Notes under the pieces: model-generated
Told to the model about the DNA's origin: nothing
The model's database searches: none
What the model saw: only the letters and a program-made list of their open reading frames with translations
Source of the DNA: Leucothrix mucor DSM 2157
GTDB lineage: Bacteria; Pseudomonadota; Gammaproteobacteria; Thiotrichales; Thiotrichaceae
NCBI RefSeq assembly: GCF_000419525.1
Contig: NZ_ATTE01000001.1
Span: 4,524,501-4,588,500 of the forward strand
DNA length: 64,000 nucleotides
Direction: 5' to 3'
Made by a program: the position numbers and the translations under genes
In this document: positions 7,568 through 26,263 of the stretch, one piece after another
Layout: every line of letters begins with the position of its first letter
Position numbering within the stretch: the first letter of the stretch is position 1

Positions 7568-8707
7568 ATGGCTGTTAATACTAACGGAAACAAAGTATTT
7601 GAGCCGTGGAATGATCCCCAAAAAACGCCGTTAATCCGATTTGAAGGAGTAACGAAGCGCTACGGGGATTTTACCGCGATTGATAATTTAACCTTAGATA
7701 TCTACGAGAAAGAGTTTTATGCCCTGCTCGGGCCATCGGGCTGTGGTAAGACAACGCTATTGCGTTTGCTGGCGGGGTTTGAAACACCCACCGAAGGCCG
7801 TATTTTGCTGGGCGGTAAGGATTTATCTAAAGTCCCGCCTAATCAGCGCCCAGTTAACATGATGTTCCAGTCGTACGCTTTATTTCCACACATGAGCGTC
7901 GAAAAGAACATCGGTTTTGGTTTAAAGCAGGAAGGTCGCAGCAAAGCAGAAATTGCCGATCGCGTGGCAGAAATGCTGAAACTGGTCCAGCTGACTGAGT
8001 TTGCCAAGCGCAAGCCGCATCAGCTATCCGGTGGTCAGCGTCAGCGGGTGGCCTTAGCGCGCTCACTGGCTAAAAATCCAAAGCTATTATTGTTAGATGA
8101 GCCACTGGGCGCATTGGATAAAAAGCTGCGCGAACGCACTCAGTTCGAGCTGATGAATCTGCAAGAGTCCTTAGGCGTAACCTTTATGATCGTAACCCAC
8201 GATCAGGAAGAGGCCATGACTGTCGCTAGTCGGATTGCGATTATGGATAAGGGCATCGCAGTGCAGGTGGATACGCCCGCCGCCATTTACGAAGCCCCGA
8301 ACTCCCGCTATATCGCCGACTTTATTGGGGATGTGAACTTCATTGAAACCACCCTCAGCAGTCGCGAAGGTGATCAGCTACAAGTGGCGTCCACCTTTAA
8401 GACGAAGTTTAGTCTGGAAAGTGATATTCAGGCCGAGATTGGTAGCACGTTATGGCTCGCCATTCGCCCTGAGAAAATCGCTATCAGCAAGCAACAGCCG
8501 ACCGACAAAGACAACATTGTACAAGGTGAAGTCATTGATATTGCCTACTCGGGCGATACCTCGACCTACCACGTAAAAATTGCCGACGGCACCATTGTTA
8601 AAACACTGCAAGCCAACCAACGACGCTTAAGTAATCGCGAGATTACCTGGGAAGATAAGGTATGGCTATCCTGGACCAATACTGCCGCCATCGCGTTGGC
8701 CAAGTGA
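7568..8707 (+). CDS. potG: Polyamine ABC transporter ATPase
   Basis: This is a 379-residue ABC ATPase. Walker A is GPSGCGKTT (about residue 57), the signature is LSGGQRQR, Walker B is LLLLDEPLGALD, and the H-loop is in VTHDQEEA. A C-terminal TOBE domain (about residues 285-375) is typical of PotA/PotG/UgpC importers. It powers uptake through PotH and PotI. AAGG precedes the ATG. It sits in the potFGHI order known from enterobacteria, with 8-base gaps on both sides. Confidence 0.9.
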   Translation: MAVNTNGNKVFEPWNDPQKTPLIRFEGVTKRYGDFTAIDNLTLDIYEKEFYALLGPSGCGKTTLLRLLAGFETPTEGRILLGGKDLSKVPPNQRPVNMMFQSYALFPHMSVEKNIGFGLKQEGRSKAEIADRVAEMLKLVQLTEFAKRKPHQLSGGQRQRVALARSLAKNPKLLLLDEPLGALDKKLRERTQFELMNLQESLGVTFMIVTHDQEEAMTVASRIAIMDKGIAVQVDTPAAIYEAPNSRYIADFIGDVNFIETTLSSREGDQLQVASTFKTKFSLESDIQAEIGSTLWLAIRPEKIAISKQQPTDKDNIVQGEVIDIAYSGDTSTYHVKIADGTIVKTLQANQRRLSNREITWEDKVWLSWTNTAAIALAK

Positions 8708-8714
8708 GGGCATC

Positions 8715-9623
8715 ATGAAAGCAGACTTTAATTGGGGGCGCTTTTTTCTCATCGGCATCCCTTTACTCTGGTTGCTGCTGTTTTTCTTAACGCCTTTTTT
8801 AATCGTACTTAAAATCTCCCTGTCGGATATGGCCACCGCCATGCCGCCATACGCACCGGCTTATGAAGCGGGCAGTGGGTTACTGGGAATTTGGGCGATG
8901 ATTCAGGCGATGGACTTTGAGAACTTCATCTGGCTGCTCGACGACAATATCTATTGGCTGTCTTACTTATCCAGTTTGAAAATAGCCTTCTTCTCGACCA
9001 TCTTCACGTTGCTGCTGGGCTACCCCATTGCTTATGGCTTGGCGCGCTCACCGGAAAAGTGGCGGGGCTTCTTAGTCTTGTTAGTCATTTTGCCATTTTG
9101 GACCAGCTTCCTAATCCGCGTGTATGCCTGGATTGGTATCTTAAAAAGCGAAGGCTTCCTTAACCACTTCCTGCTGTGGCTGGGCGTGATTGATGACCCG
9201 CTGGCGCTGATTAATACCAACTTCGCGGTGTACATCGGCATCGTGTACTCCTATTTGCCGTTTATGGTGTTGCCACTGTATGCCGCCTTGGAAAAAATGG
9301 ATGACTCCTTAGTCGAAGCGGCGTTGGATCTTGGAACGACACGCATCGGTGCCTTCTGGCAGGTGACATTCCCATTGTCGATGGCGGGCGTGATTGCCGG
9401 TTGTTTCCTTGTGTTTATTCCAGCGATGGGTGAATTCGTGATACCGGATCTGCTCGGTGGCTCTGAAACGCTCATGATTGGTAAAACGCTGTGGGGCGAG
9501 TTCTTCTCCAACCGTGACTGGCCGGTGGCCTCTGCGGTAGCGATCGTATTACTGCTGTTATTAGTGGTTCCGATATTGTTATTCCAACGCCAGCAAGAAA
9601 AGGCACAGGAGGCGGCATCATGA
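8715..9623 (+). CDS. potH: Polyamine ABC transporter permease 1
   Basis: This 302-residue inner-membrane permease has about six hydrophobic helices. The conserved EAA loop is at about residues 197-215 (EAALDLGTTRIGAFWQVTFP), which contacts the ATPase. It has a periplasmic loop after the first helix, as in PotB/PotH. It pairs with PotI to form the channel. The last four bases overlap the start of potI (ATGA), indicating coupled translation and equal dosage. Confidence 0.9.
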   Translation: MKADFNWGRFFLIGIPLLWLLLFFLTPFLIVLKISLSDMATAMPPYAPAYEAGSGLLGIWAMIQAMDFENFIWLLDDNIYWLSYLSSLKIAFFSTIFTLLLGYPIAYGLARSPEKWRGFLVLLVILPFWTSFLIRVYAWIGILKSEGFLNHFLLWLGVIDDPLALINTNFAVYIGIVYSYLPFMVLPLYAALEKMDDSLVEAALDLGTTRIGAFWQVTFPLSMAGVIAGCFLVFIPAMGEFVIPDLLGGSETLMIGKTLWGEFFSNRDWPVASAVAIVLLLLLVVPILLFQRQQEKAQEAAS

Positions 9624-10429
9624 ATGCGAATCGTTTTACTTGGTTTAATGCCACCACGCTCACCTTCGGTTTTGTTTTTTTATATTTACCGATTTTATTA
9701 TTGATCGTTTACAGTTTTAACGACTCTAAGCTAGTGACTGTGTGGGGTGGCTTTTCAACCCGCTGGTACGTCAGCCTGTTTCAAAACGAGTCGTTTATGA
9801 GTGCGGCATGGGTCACATTAAAAGTGGCTCTGCTGAGCGCCACCTTAGCCACCATCATGGGTACGCTAGCTGCGCTAGTGTTAACCCGTGCCGGGCGGTT
9901 TCGTGGGCGCATGTTGTTTTCCGGAATGATTTACTCGCCACTGGTCATGCCAGAGGTGATTACCGGTCTGTCTTTATTGCTGTTATTTGTGGCGATTGGA
10001 TTGGATCGGGGTTTTTGGACAATAACGATCGCTCACGTCACATTTTCGATGTGTTATGTAGCAGTAGTGGTATCATCTCGCTTAATCAGTTTCGACCGAT
10101 CATTGGAAGAAGCAGCGCGTGATTTAGGCTGCTCTTCGGTCGGTGCATTCCTGCAAGTAACCCTGCCAATTATTATGCCGGCAGTGGTTGCAGCATGGCT
10201 GTTAGCCTTTACCTTATCGCTCGATGATTTGGTGATCGCATCTTTCACATCAGGCCCCGGTGCTACCACCTTGCCGATGAAGATTTACAGCCAGGTGCGT
10301 TTAGGATTGAAACCTGAAATTAACGCCTTATCAACGCTGCTGATCGTAGCAGTCTCGGTGGGTGTGATCAGTGCCTCATTGATTGCCAAGCGCGCGGAGA
10401 AAATTCGCGAGCGGGCCAATGCGGACTGA
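9620..10429 (+). CDS. potI: Polyamine ABC transporter permease 2
   Basis: This 269-residue permease has about six membrane helices and an EAA loop reading EEAARDLGCSSVGAFLQVTLP, the second half of the PotHI channel. An AGGAGG ribosome-binding site lies inside the end of potH. The N-terminus opens with a membrane helix directly, as in PotC/PotI. It is followed by a 110-base gap with two hairpins before the second ligase gene. Confidence 0.9.
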   Translation: MNANRFTWFNATTLTFGFVFLYLPILLLIVYSFNDSKLVTVWGGFSTRWYVSLFQNESFMSAAWVTLKVALLSATLATIMGTLAALVLTRAGRFRGRMLFSGMIYSPLVMPEVITGLSLLLLFVAIGLDRGFWTITIAHVTFSMCYVAVVVSSRLISFDRSLEEAARDLGCSSVGAFLQVTLPIIMPAVVAAWLLAFTLSLDDLVIASFTSGPGATTLPMKIYSQVRLGLKPEINALSTLLIVAVSVGVISASLIAKRAEKIRERANAD

Positions 10430-10459
10430 CAAGCGTTAGAACAAAGTCGTGTGTTATCT

Positions 10460-10516
10460 GGCGGACAGCTGCGTTGTGCAGGCTGTTCGCCCGGTGATAT
10501 CAAATGTGGTATCACC
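10460..10516 (+). terminator. Tandem hairpins after potI
   Basis: Two inverted repeats follow the pot genes. The first (10460-10491) pairs GGCGGACAG with CTGTTCGCC around a GC stem with one bulge. The second (10493-10516) pairs GGTGATA with TATCACC and is followed by TATTTA. The U-run is short, so this may reduce transcription into the ligase and agmatinase genes or stabilise the pot message rather than terminate fully. Confidence 0.45.
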
Positions 10517-10539
10517 TATTTACTTAGCAAAGGCAAATC

Positions 10540-11868
10540 ATGCAACAAGAAATAAAAGCATTCATATCAGCTAACCCAGATGTAAAAGAAGTTGATTTGA
10601 TCATTATGGACATTCCGGGCAACTTTTACGGAAAGCGCTATGCGATTACAGACCTAGAGAAATTGGCTGTTAATGGTCTGAAATTCCCACGCGGTATGCC
10701 GCTAATGTCGGTACAAGGGCACGCGATTGATGCGCTTGGCCACGGCATTGACGATGGCGATCCGGATGCTTCGATTGAATTAGTACCAGGTAGTTTACGT
10801 CGTGTTGGCTGGGAGTCGGAGCCACGCGCACAAGTGATGGTGACCTACACGCAGGGTGAGGAAGACTCTCCATTTTGGGAGCCACGCACCATCCTGAAAA
10901 AAGTGTTAAGCCGTTTCGAAAGCAGCGGTTACCGCCCGGTTGTGGCGTTTGAATTAGAATTCTATTTGTTTGACTTAAAGCGTACCAATGACGGTTTAGT
11001 ACAAGCGCCATTGGGCCAGTTAACCGGCCAGCGCGATACTTACGCGGTTATGGGTATTGATCGTTTGGCAGACTTTGGTAAGTGCCTGAGCGACATTTCC
11101 CGTACCTGTGCAGAGCAGGGCGTGGATATTGGTCCGGCATCCGCTGAGGTGGGTTTGGGTCAGTATGAAATCAACTTAGTGCATAACAGCGACGTGATGG
11201 AAGCGGCTGATCAATGTGCGATGTTCCGCCGTATCGTTAAAGGCGTTGCGCTAAAGCACGGCTTCCAAGCTAGCTTTATGGCTAAGCCATACATTGATGA
11301 CGCCGGTAACGGCCTGCATTTGCACGTGAGTGTGTACGACGACGCGGGTGAAAACTTGCTGGCAGCGAATGACGATAAGAAACTGCTGCATGCAGTGGCT
11401 GGCGTACTGAAGCTAATGCCAGAGTCGCTGTCTATCTTCGCACCGAACGTGAATGCATTCCGCCGCTTAAAGCCAGGTAATAACGTGCCAATCGGCCCGA
11501 CTTGGGGCTATGAGAACCGCTCAGTTGCGGTGCGCATTCCAGAGTCTGAAGCTAAAGATCGCCGTATCGAATACCGCGTTGGTGGTGCTGATGGCAACCC
11601 ATACTTAACGCTGGCAACTTTATTGGCTGGCATGCATAACGGTATGGAAAAAGAGTTAGACCCCGGCGCCCCGACTGAAGAGTTGAGTGAAGATTCTTTC
11701 GGCTTGCCGACTGACTTGCTGGATGCGTTATACGTCACTGAAGAGTCCGAGGTATTAAAGGAGTATCTTGGCAGCGAATTCGTCGGCGTGTATTGTGCCC
11801 AAAAGCGCAGTGAATTTAACGCGTACGAAGCAGCAATTTCAGCGAGGGAATACGATTGGTACCTGTAA
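10540..11868 (+). CDS. Second glutamine-synthetase-like gamma-glutamyl-amine ligase
   Basis: A 442-residue glutamine synthetase family protein with [29 protein letters not shown] and [13 protein letters not shown] blocks covering the metal, glutamate and ATP sites. It is a paralogue of the 4861-6237 protein but clearly diverged, including a shortened N-terminal beta-grasp region. Position between the Pot importer and agmatinase suggests it glutamylates a second amine (spermidine, agmatine-derived putrescine or another amine). The substrate cannot be read from sequence. AAAGG precedes the ATG, and its end overlaps the agmatinase start by 13 bases. Confidence 0.8.
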
Positions 11869-12761
11869 ATAGCATTTCAAATTATGGCAATGTGTTCAGC
11901 TATATGGGGCAGAACTTAAGCCGTGATTTAAACGAAGCCGACGTGTTTATCGTCGGCATTCCATACGACATGGCTACGACAGGCCGCGCCGGTACTCGTG
12001 GTGGCCCAATGGCTATCCGCCAAGCTAGCGCGCACATTCGCTGGGAAGAAAACCGTTGGCCGTGGGACTTCTGCGCCTTTGAAAAGATGCGGGTTGCCGA
12101 CTATGGCGATCTGGAGCCTTTCACCGGTAATCAGCAGTCATTGCTGGATGAAGTCGAAGAGCACGTTGGCGCCTTGGTGGATGCAGGTAAAACTGTACTG
12201 GGCTTTGGTGGCGATCACTTTGTGACTTTGCCGCTGATGCGCGCGCACGCTAAAAAGCATGGCAAGATGGCGATGATCCATTTTGACGCGCACACAGACA
12301 CCTACAGCGAGCCGGGCAGCGAGTTTAACCATGGCAGCATGTTCCACTTTGCACCGCTGGAAGGCCTGATTGATCCGGCCAAAAGCGTGCAGATCGGCAT
12401 TCGTACCGAGTACACCGTGAAAGATCACCCGTTTACCGTGATCGACGCGGCGGACGCCAATGACCGCAGTGCCGCTAGTATTGTCGAACAAATCAAAAGT
12501 ATTGTCGGCGACACGCCAACGTACCTGACATTTGATATCGACTGCTTGGACCCTGCGTATGCACCTGGCACTGGAACACCGGTACCGGGCGGATTGACGA
12601 GTGATAAGGCGCTGAAGATCATTCGTGGATTGGTGGGCGTTAATTTGGTCGGAATGGATGTGGTAGAAGTTTCCCCACCGTATGACCATGCAGACATCAC
12701 CGCACTAGCAGGAGCCACGCTGGCGCTGGAAATGTTGTATGTATTGGCGGCAGGAAAGTAA
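11856..12761 (+). CDS. speB: Agmatinase (ureohydrolase family)
   Basis: A 301-residue ureohydrolase. The two-manganese site is visible in [18 protein letters not shown] and [17 protein letters not shown], with [11 protein letters not shown] near the C-terminus. Agmatinases hydrolyse agmatine to putrescine and urea; guanidinobutyrase or guanidinopropionase are close alternatives. The start is a TTG at 11856 with GAGGG seven bases upstream, overlapping the preceding ligase gene, which indicates coupling. It ends the rightward polyamine run and supplies putrescine to the PuuA/SpuC/PuuB enzymes encoded to the left. Confidence 0.85.
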
Positions 12762-23202: not shown

Positions 23203-23485
23203 GGTTCCATCCGGTTGCTAGCCTCGTGCGGTGGTTTGAGTGTTTTTAAACCAATGTGCTTAGTCAGTAGTATAGGATGTTATTGGAGATTAGTGGGGGT
23301 GAGTGTGGTTTTATGCTGTGTATTTGGCTTATTGTGATTTGTGGGTGGATTCCGTATAGTTCTGTTATTAAATTAGCCAATATTGTAAATTCTAATGCTG
23401 ATCAATAGGTTGGGTGTATGCGGAGAGGCTATGTTGTTTGGACTACACGGAAGGCTATGTTGAATAATTTCCGTATAGCATACTG
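23203..23485. other. Left flank of the cassette array: repeats, candidate promoter, no integrase
   Basis: This noncoding stretch holds two kinds of direct repeat. TTCCGTATAG followed by CTGTTAT occurs at 23350-23368 and 23469-23489. AGGCTATGTTG occurs at 23426-23436 and 23452-23462, 26 bases apart. The last GTTATAC (23485-23491) is the junction where the first cassette begins. Integron attI sites carry two direct integrase-binding repeats next to such a junction, so this may be an attI remnant, but the usual neighbouring intI gene is absent. Confidence 0.35.
23333..23360 (+). promoter_or_regulatory. Candidate cassette promoter
   Basis: TTGTGA (23333-23338) and TATAGT (23355-23360) are separated by 16 bases and point into the cassette array. 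The -10 lies inside the repeated TTCCGTATAG element. A second, weaker pair (TTGTTT 23434-23439, TATGTT 23456-23461, 16-base spacer) is closer. Either could act as the common cassette promoter. Confidence 0.35.
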
Positions 23486-23506
23486 TTATACAAAAAAGGA
23501 TTTCTC

Positions 23507-24163
23507 GTGTCATCAGAATTATCTCAAGAGCTATATGCTCTTTATAAAAAATATGAATCAGATCTATACGAATTTGGAGAGAGGTCCAACGAGATAGTTC
23601 ATGGCCCTTTCCTTATATCGCCAAACGATAAATTCTCTACTTCAAAAGTCAGAGTTGTATTTATAGGCCAAGAAACTAACGGCTGGAGTTGTAAAAAAGA
23701 CATCTCAAATCAAATGGAAACGTACTCAAAGTTTAATCTTGGGGAAAAGTATGTTTCAAGCCCATTTTGGAATGTGATTAGGAAGTTTGAAAAATCTATT
23801 ATTGGAGAGACGCACTCATCATCATGGTTAAATATTAATCGATATGACGAAAATAGCAAAAAGCCATCCAATGAAAATAGAGAGCTATTATCTGGTTTAG
23901 ATACATTGCTTTTATCAGAGCTTAAAATTTTAAAGCCCGATGTCACCATATTTTTAACTGGTCATAGTTATGATAGTAGAATCATTCCTCTGCTCAGCGC
24001 TCAAAAGACAAGCATAGGTGAATTCGATCAAAAGCAAGTATGTGAAATGATAACAAACTCTATAGGTGGTCGGGTATTTAGAACCTATCACCCAAATTAT
24101 TTAAGGCGCTCTGGCCTTGAGAGCAGAGTAATTTCAGAAATTTGCTCTCAAGTAAATGTATAA
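23507..24163 (+). CDS. Cassette A gene: unknown protein with UDG-like motifs
   Basis: A 218-residue soluble protein starting at GTG 23507 with AAAAGGA seven bases upstream. It contains VVFIGQETNGWSC (about residues 48-60), LKPDVTIFLTGHSYD and a late RTYHPNYLRR. A Gly-Gln-Glu loop and a His-Pro loop in this order recall the uracil-DNA glycosylase-like superfamily, including many uncharacterised cassette proteins, but this is weak evidence. The last bases run into the attC site. Codon use is AT-rich, unlike the neighbouring chromosomal genes. Confidence 0.6.
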   Translation: MSSELSQELYALYKKYESDLYEFGERSNEIVHGPFLISPNDKFSTSKVRVVFIGQETNGWSCKKDISNQMETYSKFNLGEKYVSSPFWNVIRKFEKSIIGETHSSSWLNINRYDENSKKPSNENRELLSGLDTLLLSELKILKPDVTIFLTGHSYDSRIIPLLSAQKTSIGEFDQKQVCEMITNSIGGRVFRTYHPNYLRRSGLESRVISEICSQVNV

Positions 24164-24238
24164 CAAGGCAATTAAAAATCGCCCACAAAAACACGCGGGC
24201 TGGACTCGCTCCGCTCGCCTTTTATTGCGGCGTTATAT
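24158..24238 (+). other. attC site 1 (end of cassette A)
   Basis: The left core is GTATAAC (24158-24164) and the right core GTTATAT (24232-24238). Inside, GCAATTAAAA on the left pairs with TTTTATTGC on the right with one unpaired base, the extrahelical-base pattern of folded attC bottom strands. A GC-rich middle (GCCC...GGGC and CTCGCTCCGCTCGCC) forms the apex. Length 81 bases. Confidence 0.85.
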
Positions 24239-24255
24239 TTTTTAGGAGGCATTAT

Positions 24256-24423
24256 ATGTTCGGTTGGTTGTTCAGTCTATTCACCTGGCTAACTGAGTTA
24301 TGGGGAAAAGTCCCAGAACCCGTTAAAGAAAAAATTATTTATATGATCGTCGAAACACTTGATATGATATTTAGAGAGTTTTTCCGTTCAAAGAAAAAAG
24401 GGCAGGAAACAAATAATGAGTAA
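24256..24423 (+). CDS. Cassette B first gene: small amphipathic membrane-associated protein
   Basis: A 55-residue protein with AGGAGG seven bases upstream of its ATG. The N-terminus is Trp/Phe-rich (MFGWLFSLFTWLTELWGKVP), followed by KEKIIYMIVETLDMIFREFF and a Lys-rich tail. This looks like a small amphipathic helix-turn-helix that may associate with membrane. Similar short proteins occur in other cassettes as far as I recall. It overlaps the second gene by eight bases. A longer frame starting at 24142 merely reads through the attC site and is rejected. Confidence 0.6.
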   Translation: MFGWLFSLFTWLTELWGKVPEPVKEKIIYMIVETLDMIFREFFRSKKKGQETNNE

Positions 24424-24715
24424 TTTTAGAGATTTTGTGAAATCCAGAACAGGGCAAAAAATGATTAGCTCTTCTTCAGCTCAAGGTTTAACTACTCAAA
24501 TAAGCGGAACTTTGGCTACTACGGGGTTAAGTATATCTAGCAATGATAGAGAAAAATTTTCATCTGAAGTTGTACAAGTCGCTAATAGTGACGAAGTTCT
24601 AACTGAGTTAAGCGAATCAATTGGTGATCCAAAAGAAAATGAAAGCGAAGATGAATTTGTTGAGCGTGCGAAATCTACTCTCGCAAAGATATTGAAAAAT
24701 AAGTTAATAAAATAA
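24416..24715 (+). CDS. Cassette B second gene: small acidic helical protein, unknown
   Basis: A 99-residue soluble protein, Ser/Thr-rich at the N-terminus (ISSSSAQGLTTQISGTLATTGLSISSNDREKF), then acidic and helical (GDPKENESEDEFVERAKSTLAKILKNKLIK). It is translationally coupled to the 55-residue protein, so the cassette carries a two-gene module. A toxin-antitoxin or effector-immunity pair is possible, but nothing in the sequence proves it. Confidence 0.55.
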   Translation: MSNFRDFVKSRTGQKMISSSSAQGLTTQISGTLATTGLSISSNDREKFSSEVVQVANSDEVLTELSESIGDPKENESEDEFVERAKSTLAKILKNKLIK

Positions 24716-24787
24716 ATATAACAAGCCACTGCACTCGGAAATTTTACTCGCTTGGCTCCCAAAATTCCGGTGAGTGGGGCGTTATAC
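24716..24787 (+). other. attC site 2 (end of cassette B)
   Basis: The left core is ATATAAC (24716-24722) and the right core GTTATAC (24781-24787). The arms GCCACT...CGGAAATTTT and AAAATTCCGGTGAGTGGGGC pair with small interruptions, giving a hairpin with extrahelical bases. Length 72 bases. Confidence 0.85.
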
Positions 24788-24799
24788 GAAAGGAAGATA

Positions 24800-25229
24800 A
24801 TGAGTATTGAGCAAGAATTTTCTGAATACCAGGATATCTGGGACGATTGTAATCTTGGCTATGTCATTTGTGAGAACAAGTCAGGGCTATCTGGCCTTCC
24901 AGCTATAAACGAAATTATTTCAAAAAAATGCTAGATTCAATTCCTACAAGAGTGGCATCAGCCAGCGTATTGAAAATGAGGCGCAAAGGCTTTTTTTTGA
25001 AATGACCAACGAAGCTATTTCTATGTCATATGGAGATCACAGGCAACTCTCGGATGATGAATTATACAGACTATTTTATTCGTTTATCAGATCTGTTGGT
25101 GATGGTGAGTTCTTTACCAACTTTTCTGATGACGGCTGGTTTTCATTAACGAAGCATACTCGTGATAGTTTGTTTTGTTTAGTTGGTAAAGAAAAAATTG
25201 GTATGTGGTTTAGCTATGATGACGAGTAA
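24800..25229 (+). pseudogene. Cassette C gene split by a frameshift in an A7 run
   Basis: The frame from ATG 24800 (AAGGAAG just upstream) gives 44 residues and stops at 24932-24934 just after a run of seven A (24922-24928). Removing one A continues smoothly into a second frame (RFNSYKSGISQRIENEAQRLFFEMTNEA...) that runs to the stop at 25227-25229, making one protein of about 142 residues. The second part alone could start at ATG 25002. The restored protein is soluble and acidic, of unknown family. The break may be a real inactivating indel, a slippage site or a sequencing error. Confidence 0.65.
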
Positions 25230-25231
25230 TT

Positions 25232-25350
25232 GTATAACAAGGCTTTGCAGTCCGGCAGCGCAGGCGGTGTCGAATTGTGTGCATGGTCGTACCGCCCATT
25301 TTTACACACAATACGCCCCACATGCACTGCGGTAGAAAGCGGCGTTGGAT
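25232..25350 (+). other. attC site 3 (end of cassette C), long form
   Basis: The left core is GTATAAC (25232-25238) and the right core GTTGGAT (25344-25350), which fits GTTRRRY but is not the complement of the left core. That is expected when the next cassette supplies the last six bases. The inside is highly palindromic: GAATTGTGTG pairs with CACACAATAC, and GGCGGT with ACCGCC. At 119 bases it is the length of Vibrio-type repeats. Confidence 0.82.
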
Positions 25351-25358
25351 GCTCCATT

Positions 25359-25772
25359 ATGAATAAACTAAGATGGATATCACTTCCCATAGCATGCATT
25401 CTAGTATGGTATACAACCCTAATTCTGGGCATGTTAATCATAAATTTTTCGATTTATTTCTGTCCGAAAGATCAGATGATTTCTGGCATGTGTATGGCTT
25501 CATGGTGGGATAGTGTTGAAGCAATTATTTTTTGTTTCAGCACCGGATTATCAGCAGCCTTAATTGTAACAACAGCATTTTTTATTGCTCCTGTTGGCAG
25601 GGTTCTTGTTGCTTGGCTTACATTGGGTATTGGCAGTATGGTTGCGCTCTATCTGGCTTTCCAGTTATCTGCCTGGGATATGTTTGCCTCAGCAGTCTGC
25701 GCTGGTTTACTGGTTACATTTTTACTCACACGATCTCGCTTTGCACAACAAGGTATCCAACAAAAAAATTGA
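25359..25772 (+). CDS. Polytopic membrane protein after the last attC
   Basis: A 137-residue protein with four membrane helices (about residues 5-28, 50-74, 78-98 and 104-122) and a CPKDQMISGMCMASWW loop with paired Cys. Its ATG lies nine bases after the attC 3 right core, so its 5' end looks like the start of a fourth cassette, but no attC follows it. A longer frame from 25230 only reads through attC 3. The family is unknown to me, although similar four-helix proteins are common in marine gammaproteobacteria. Confidence 0.6.
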   Translation: MNKLRWISLPIACILVWYTTLILGMLIINFSIYFCPKDQMISGMCMASWWDSVEAIIFCFSTGLSAALIVTTAFFIAPVGRVLVAWLTLGIGSMVALYLAFQLSAWDMFASAVCAGLLVTFLLTRSRFAQQGIQQKN

Positions 25773-25786
25773 GAATATAGGACAAA

Positions 25787-26263
25787 ATGGAAACCAACCC
25801 GTATAAGCCTCCTACGGCTTCCTTAGCTGTTGATAGTGCTCCAAATGATGAGCTGAACACGCGTGAACTTTATAATAAAGTGCTGATTTTTAGAGGTCGG
25901 ATGGGGCGAATCCGGTATCTTTATACAACTGTGGCGGGGTTAGTCATGGCGCTGATAATGATTATGTTTTGGGGTAGATTATCCCCATTTCTGATGGTGC
26001 CAGCGACTATTTATTATGGCGTTAAAGTACCTTGGGTTTTTGCGGCCTCTTCAGTCAGAAGAGTGCAAGATTTAGGTAAGCCAGCAGTCTGGGCTTGGTT
26101 TGCCTTGCTACCGCCTATGTTCATCTGGTTGGCCATTGCGCCAAGTGAAGATAAGCCAAACAGCCATGGTAAGCAGGTTTTTAAACCCACCAAATGGGAA
26201 TATACAGGGGTAGTTTCCTCATTATTTCTGGCAGGCATATTTCTATTAGTCTTTGCGTATTAG
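25787..26263 (+). CDS. DUF805-like membrane protein
   Basis: A 158-residue protein starting METNPYKPPTASL, with F-R-GRMGRIRYLY before the first helix and SVRRVQDLGKPAVWAW between helices, both marks of the DUF805 (YhaH) family. About four membrane helices follow. AGGA lies five bases upstream of the ATG. The role of DUF805 proteins is unknown. It is the last gene before the convergent ABC exporter and shows no attC. Confidence 0.65.
   Translation: METNPYKPPTASLAVDSAPNDELNTRELYNKVLIFRGRMGRIRYLYTTVAGLVMALIMIMFWGRLSPFLMVPATIYYGVKVPWVFAASSVRRVQDLGKPAVWAWFALLPPMFIWLAIAPSEDKPNSHGKQVFKPTKWEYTGVVSSLFLAGIFLLVFAY

Follow-up and report, generated by a model that had tools for sequence, protein, structure and literature searches.

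A short integron cassette array on an apparent attI site of its own in Leucothrix mucor, in a genome where no integron integrase is detected

How does a row of integron cassettes come to lie in a genome that has no integron integrase, and did it gather at a random site or on an integron platform that lost its enzyme? This question is raised by a 64-kb stretch of Leucothrix mucor DSM 2157 (hereafter the window), positions 4524501-4588500 of a chromosome of 5.1 Mb; the genome (G000) is 100% complete in two contigs and includes an 89-kb plasmid. The initial annotation had marked an integrase-less array in it and called it a cluster of attC sites lacking an integron integrase (CALIN). This label stands in so far as there are at least two attC sites and no integrase gene (intI) genome-wide, but it misses the attI site at the head of the array. 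In our reading, to which we give a probability of roughly 0.85, the locus is a short integron cassette array seated on its attI, and the genome around it has lost its integron integrase. The attC sites were scored with covariance model R1, built from 14 attC sites, all from other genomes (longest training site 101 nt), and with an architecture pattern, TAACAA - L box ... L' box - G[GC]C - GTT[AG], which was written after the sites had been seen. The elements of the array, in window positions, are the following.

23350-23487, plus strand: attI site, directly left of cassette 1, left limit inferred
23350-23359, plus strand: left box of attI, TTCCGTATAG
23417-23436 and 23443-23462, plus strand: direct motif copies of attI, ending GGCTATGTTG
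23469-23478, plus strand: right box of attI, TTCCGTATAG
23485/23486, plus strand: attI crossover, G/TT, coinciding exactly with the cassette 1 boundary
23486-24232, plus strand: cassette 1, 747 bp; its start at 23485/23486 matches the attC1 left core over 8 bases
24158-24238, plus strand: attC1, found by the architecture scan and by model R1 on the minus strand (E 1e-9)
24233-24781, plus strand: cassette 2, 549 bp; its start matches the attC2 left core over 9 bases
24716-24787, plus strand: attC2, model R1 E 2.9e-14, bottom-strand fold z -3.3
24782-25344, plus strand: cassette 3, 563 bp; its start matches the attC3 left core over 7 bases
25232-25350, plus strand: attC3, 119 nt with a long variable arm, found by the architecture scan, fold z -3.3, model R1 E 0.95

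The three attC sites have TATAAC left cores at 24159, 24717 and 25233 and right cores GTTATAT at 24232, GTTATAC at 24781 and GTTGGAT at 25344, so that the cores given in the initial annotation (TATAAC; GTTATAY or GTTGGAT) are confirmed by sequence and by the architecture scan, and its unit lengths of 747, 549 and 563 are exact. The architecture, with its R boxes, L boxes and spacers correctly ordered, occurred exactly three times in the window on both strands and in none of 100 dinucleotide-preserving shuffles. Model R1 gave 61.7 bits to site 2 and 44.8 bits to site 1, and a scan of the whole genome for further attC sites returned, at E 0.001 or better, these two only. Covariance scoring, which had been proposed as a check, thus supported sites 1 and 2 and left out site 3; failure of at least two sites, which had been named as speaking against the array, did not occur with model R1. 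Single-stranded DNA folding of the bottom strands gave R and L stems with extrahelical bases for site 2 (z -2.8 and -3.3) and site 3 (z -3.1 and -3.3), and the top strands of sites 1-3 gave z -0.7, -2.7 and +0.5. In addition, the left cores agreed with the beginnings of their own cassettes over 8, 9 and 7 bases and with the right-hand neighbours over 6, 6 and 3, as is expected of excised circles, that is, of units that were once circular. The open reading frames (ORFs) filling the cassettes all lie on the plus strand and the cassettes have a GC content of 36, 36 and 40%, versus 53% in the flanking genes, in agreement with the earlier description of AT-rich units with genes in one direction. 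With Rfam at gathering thresholds, the sole match in the window was one tRNA.

The left end of the array was compared with a family sample of 63 genomes in 8 genera, of which G003, G004 and G006 share the genus of G000. A blastn search aligned the window attI with the attI beside the intI of G003 over 82 bp at 73% identity, and against a reference set of 19 attI sites, which adjoin 19 of 23 intI loci and whose crossover motifs were picked by eye, the window attI matched at E 6.4e-6. Since our attI model R2 includes the window sequence, its score for the window is no evidence, and blast against intI-attached attI sites was used instead. A run of 21 bases spanning the crossover is identical between the window and G003, and TTCCGTATAGCATACTGTTAT is identical in all three attI sites that were aligned. 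In the one-cassette integron of G003, intI lies on the opposite strand and is followed by CCTTCCGTATAGCATACT, which meets GTTATG at the first cassette; the window counterpart is TTTCCGTATAGCATACT, which meets GTTATA at the start of cassette 1. The left box of the window attI is also found in a second, integrase-less attI of G003 on contig C77. Because the array begins at an attI homologous to the intI-attached attI of G003, we take it for an integron platform that lacks its integrase and not for cassettes that landed at a random site. A second attI candidate in G000, at 2163777-2163846 (attI model, E 2.3e-6), was rejected; it has no GTT at the crossover and no cassette was found there in the scan.

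As the initial annotation had advised, the complete G000 genome was searched for the integrase itself; with TIGR02249 as the model nothing exceeded the cut-off of 265 bits; the best match reached 79.9 bits, and the best matches below the cut-off are ORFs of 302 and 310 aa. Among the 63 family genomes, intI exceeded the cut-off in 35, including G003, G004 and G006, and a match at E 1e-60 was found in 37. No intI remnant was detected by tblastn in the window with the G003 integrase (IntI) as query at E 10, or with the G003 and G010 IntI at E 1, nor was one found at E 0.1 in the 1.5 kb left of the window attI.

Further observations were made on the attI sites and integrases of the family. CCGTATAGCAT, as in the attI box, lies within the intI coding sequence about 400 bp from the crossover at L100, L104, L105 and L107-L113, where it may be a chance occurrence or a second binding site. 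At five loci (L070, L071, L105, L110 and L168) in four genomes, the attI crossover is the exact starting point of GTTGAACTAAACCGC, which looks like the end of an insertion sequence (IS) with a tyrosine recombinase and an IS91-like transposase, judging from the ORFs of L071. Many family integrases have an open N-terminal extension, with frames of 465-519 aa versus about 320-340 aa in others; it was seen in G003, G016, G059 and genus g2 (L069, L075, L078, L104, L105, L107-L111 and L113). In contig C2 of G069, positions 2266577-3164715 of one chromosome hold five intI copies with identical score, in two clusters with 4482-bp spacing.

Several observations weigh against an attI-headed array. Site 3 was not significant with model R1 (11.7 bits), ranking sixth among the 19 matches listed, and three unrelated window positions scored higher; at 119 nt the site exceeds every training site of the model. 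Its right core limits pairing with the left core to the vicinity of GTT/AAC, and its left core fits the start of cassette 1 (9 bases) better than that of its own cassette. The fold of site 1 was ambiguous, unlike those of sites 2 and 3 that bore out the predicted bottom-strand hairpins: it gave z -1.4 and -1.3 and a minimum-energy structure other than the attC cruciform, the R stem being retained in the centroid fold. Of two sister sites of the attC1 sequence class, which was also seen in G010 and G016, L076 forms the R and L stems and L072 does not. Outside the 21 identical bases the window attI is just moderately similar to that of G003, and of the further copies of shared motifs within the 82-bp match one is in the opposite orientation. 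A scan for the cassette promoter Pc gave 10 promoter-like matches versus 7.1 +/- 2.3 expected, none of them outstanding. Furthermore, no empty-site allele was found at the loci of G028 and G019 that served for comparison through a roughly 70% similar flanking gene, because both genomes have other genes past that gene.

We propose that the cassettes would have entered as circles, one after another, at the G/TT of this attI through an IntI like that retained by the sister species, each attC presumably being used as a folded bottom strand, and that after the loss of IntI they would have stayed in place and decayed. Since IntI is gone from G000, the array would now be a relic, which fits the broken gene of cassette 3. 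For the cassettes to move again, an IntI would have to enter the genome or act on it from another replicon. Within this reading the locus may once have had an intI or may have received attI alone.

The first possibility is that a complete integron stood here, with intI to the left of attI, and that a deletion removed this gene as far as the neighbouring one; to this we give close to an even chance. The presence of attI agrees with it, and loss of the integrase is named among CALIN origins in the parts consulted of PMC8618304 (off-target insertion, intI loss or rearrangement) and of PMC11389934 (integrase loss or translocation). An apparent intermediate is seen in G033, which has two attI copies, no intI at E 1e-60, and beside each attI a match to the 5' end of intI (53 and 34 aa), part of which lies in attI because the query frame reads through it; the genome looks like a case of plain decay leaving short 5' intI stubs. 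Against such a deletion in the window stand the lack of any intI remnant at the thresholds given above and the gene left of attI, about 70% conserved in two other genera, which starts 283 bp from the crossover.

The second possibility, to which we assign somewhat less than an even chance, is that attI alone was copied to this place and that an IntI encoded elsewhere, since lost from the genome, supplied it with cassettes in trans. It draws on a sample of 26 integrase-less arrays whose left side was fetched, the window included; these cover part of the arrays detected by model R1, and in 7 of them less than 1.3 kb of left sequence was present. At the head of seven of the 26 (the window, G003 C77, four arrays in G010 and G016 C53) stands an attI that matches one of the 19 intI-attached sites with E no higher than 1e-5; on the reverse strand, used as a control, 0 of 26 reach E 1e-5 across the crossover, and of two partly palindromic attI sites one matches at E 2.2e-5 across the crossover and the other at 1e-9 elsewhere. 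Weak matches, each with GTT at the crossover, were found for four others (G016 C18 at E 0.001, G059 C16 at 0.011, G016 C49 at 0.012 and G059 C64 at 0.42), and the remaining 15 have no countable attI match. In G003 C77, the second attI copy is 97% identical over 73 bp to the attI beside intI and is followed by at least eight attC sites in our own scan, five of them also found by R1 at E 0.001; the 6.4 kb to its left have no intI match except two 14-aa matches within attI itself. In G010 only one intI was found at E 1e-60, at 1.276 Mb of contig C2; the four orphan arrays with an attI at their head are on that contig too, at 0.61, 0.90, 0.92 and 0.96 Mb, 320-660 kb from intI.

Two features of the orphan attI sites also speak for this possibility. 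A left box, TTCYGTATAG, occurs at -120 to -144 in 6 of the 7 orphan attI loci (at -135 in the window and -144 in G003 C77), and in genus g5 the left edge of five loci, of which one adjoins intI, is marked by this box 120 bp before the crossover. Moreover, the cores of orphan attI sites show higher conservation than the DNA next to them: between one orphan attI and the attached attI of G010 the 60-bp core is identical and 129 of 158 positions agree farther out (Fisher p 6.8e-5), and four comparisons of orphan sites with the attached attI of G016 give the same gradient at p 1.4e-5 to 7.8e-4, in pairs that are not independent. On the other side, 19 of the 26 arrays have no attI match at E 1e-5, the four weak ones among them; the attached attI of G003 has no left box; and the gradient appears also between the window and G003 (p 0.001 and 0.004), though G000 has no IntI, is not significant in one pair of orphan sites (p 0.18), and in the case of the G003 attI reflects the end of homology at -67. 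Dispersal is only deduced from these patterns, and gene conversion could explain the conserved cores.

From the several landing sites without an enzyme in the relatives it may be suggested that one integrase feeds many sites. A tentative generalization, which we consider doubtful enough to be held loosely, is that the attI of this family is a dispersible platform whose copies of about 120-145 bp lie at several loci without intI and are all loaded by one integrase, the window being a satellite stranded after integrase loss. Because other orphan attI sites exist, a platform loaded in trans is credible for the window on sequence grounds. A further route for the movement of attI is possible, as truncated attI can travel within unusual cassettes of mobile integrons according to the part consulted of PMC12901181.

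We consider it improbable that the cassettes were inserted at a chance secondary site (attG) whose likeness to attI is accidental. Insertion at attG is known (PMC12444791, in the portion consulted), the identical stretch has a length of only 21 bp, and an attI match is lacking in other family arrays; against this stands an 82-bp match with extra motif copies, in exact register with the cassette boundary. The chance that the sites are accidental inverted repeats or intrinsic terminators between ordinary genes is negligible, since a terminator-like hairpin in site 1 on the minus strand (1 found versus 1.5 expected in the region) is its only attraction and the shuffles, the R1 E-values and the own-register matches already refute it.

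The reading of the locus as a cassette array on its attI concerns the sites; the genes carried by the cassettes and those to the right of the array are the following.

23507-24163, plus strand: cassette 1 gene, GTG start, 218 aa, predicted uracil-DNA-glycosylase superfamily fold
24256-24423, plus strand: cassette 2 gene a, 55 aa, aligned homologues in two plasmids and a prophage at 26-35% identity
24416-24715, plus strand: cassette 2 gene b, 99 aa, overlapping gene a by 8 bp; phrog_2336 at E 1.5e-21, function unknown
24800-25229, plus strand: cassette 3 gene, frame interrupted, in pieces 24800-24934 and 24927-25229
25359-25772, plus strand: membrane-protein-like small gene right of the last attC
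25787-26263, plus strand: membrane-protein-like small gene, DUF805, right of the last attC

The initial annotation had called each cassette product a candidate new function, which is too strong: the product of cassette 1 has a known fold by prediction, the pair in cassette 2 is known elsewhere as hypothetical proteins, and the frame of cassette 3 is broken. The cassette 1 protein matched Pfam PF03167 (E 0.0042, 17.6 of 24.3 bits) and NCBIfam Arch_udg (E 0.0063, 16 of 250 bits), both below cut-off, and its family had no match among PDB sequences. Its AlphaFold2 model (mean pLDDT 81) had the uracil-DNA glycosylase 1l9g as best PDB match in Foldseek, with E 5e-6, TM 0.47-0.52 and rmsd 7.7. Relatives at about 30% identity were found in 18 loci of several phyla, and in 17 aligned relatives GQ, nearly always as GQET, and FRTYHPNYL are conserved. 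The model thus places the product in the uracil-DNA-glycosylase superfamily fold, with catalysis only putative.

The overlapping pair of cassette 2 recurs, as hypothetical proteins, in a Psychrobacter plasmid, in a Klebsiella plasmid and in a Klebsiella phage record (a prophage), where it lies between lysis genes and the terminase on the opposite strand (loci L136, L137 and L197). A second Klebsiella phage record has gene b at the same place and no annotated gene a, and gene b had no relative in viral_contigs. A position between lysis genes and terminase is typical of morons. Because the prophage copy stands in such a position, we guess by analogy that the pair may be a candidate phage-exclusion pair; PADLOC reported nothing on the window cassettes. 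In cassette 3, the frame breaks near a run of seven A at 24922-24928; the second piece had no homologue in plasmids, phages or the 62 other family genomes, the first piece (44 aa) was scanned against the family libraries only. The two genes right of attC3 have a GC content of 42%, AT-richer than the flanks, and no attC was detected after them. The first had no match in the 62 other family genomes and the second had matches in 12 of 59 other family genomes, all merely at 25-32% identity; the two are possibly the remnant of a cassette that lost its attC. A separate observation concerns G003 C77, where a complete Gabija defence system lies inside one integron cassette of about 4 kb (L134, reverse-complement 8555-12577), with PADLOC matches to GajA at E 1.5e-267 and GajB at E 6.4e-199; the attC belonging to this cassette has a left core that agrees with the cassette start over 9 bases.

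Integrase-less arrays that start at an attI of their own genus offer a sequence test between a dead relic and a satellite platform used in trans, and if the latter were true, the cassette-handling capacity of a genome would extend beyond its intI locus. In the consulted part of PMC9024848, CALINs (2961) and complete integrons (2760) are about equally common, attI sites outside class 1 integrons are described as poorly known, and IntegronFinder 2 makes no attI detection outside class 1. An attI such as that of the window would therefore go unrecorded, and the retention of attI by CALINs is seldom recorded. The archaeal attI sites in the consulted part of PMC9668308 adjoin intI. Arrays headed by attI without intI were not described in the titles and abstract openings searched, a body of text that leaves most of the subscription literature outside and so gives no proof of novelty.

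Compared with known systems, the window array is like a CALIN in the sense of IntegronFinder in having at least two attC sites, cassettes in one orientation and no intI nearby, and differs from it in starting at a recognisable attI. It resembles the dispersed CALINs of Xanthomonas, which are integrase-less arrays at fixed loci away from intI, but none of these is reported with an attI in the portion consulted of PMC12444791, whereas the window array has an attI matching its genus. It shares with off-target insertions at attG the position of cassettes away from intI, and its left boundary differs from theirs in being an attI. A complete sedentary chromosomal integron has what G000 does not, an intI; the window array has in common with it an attI, as judged by sequence, attC sites, and cassettes mostly of unknown function.

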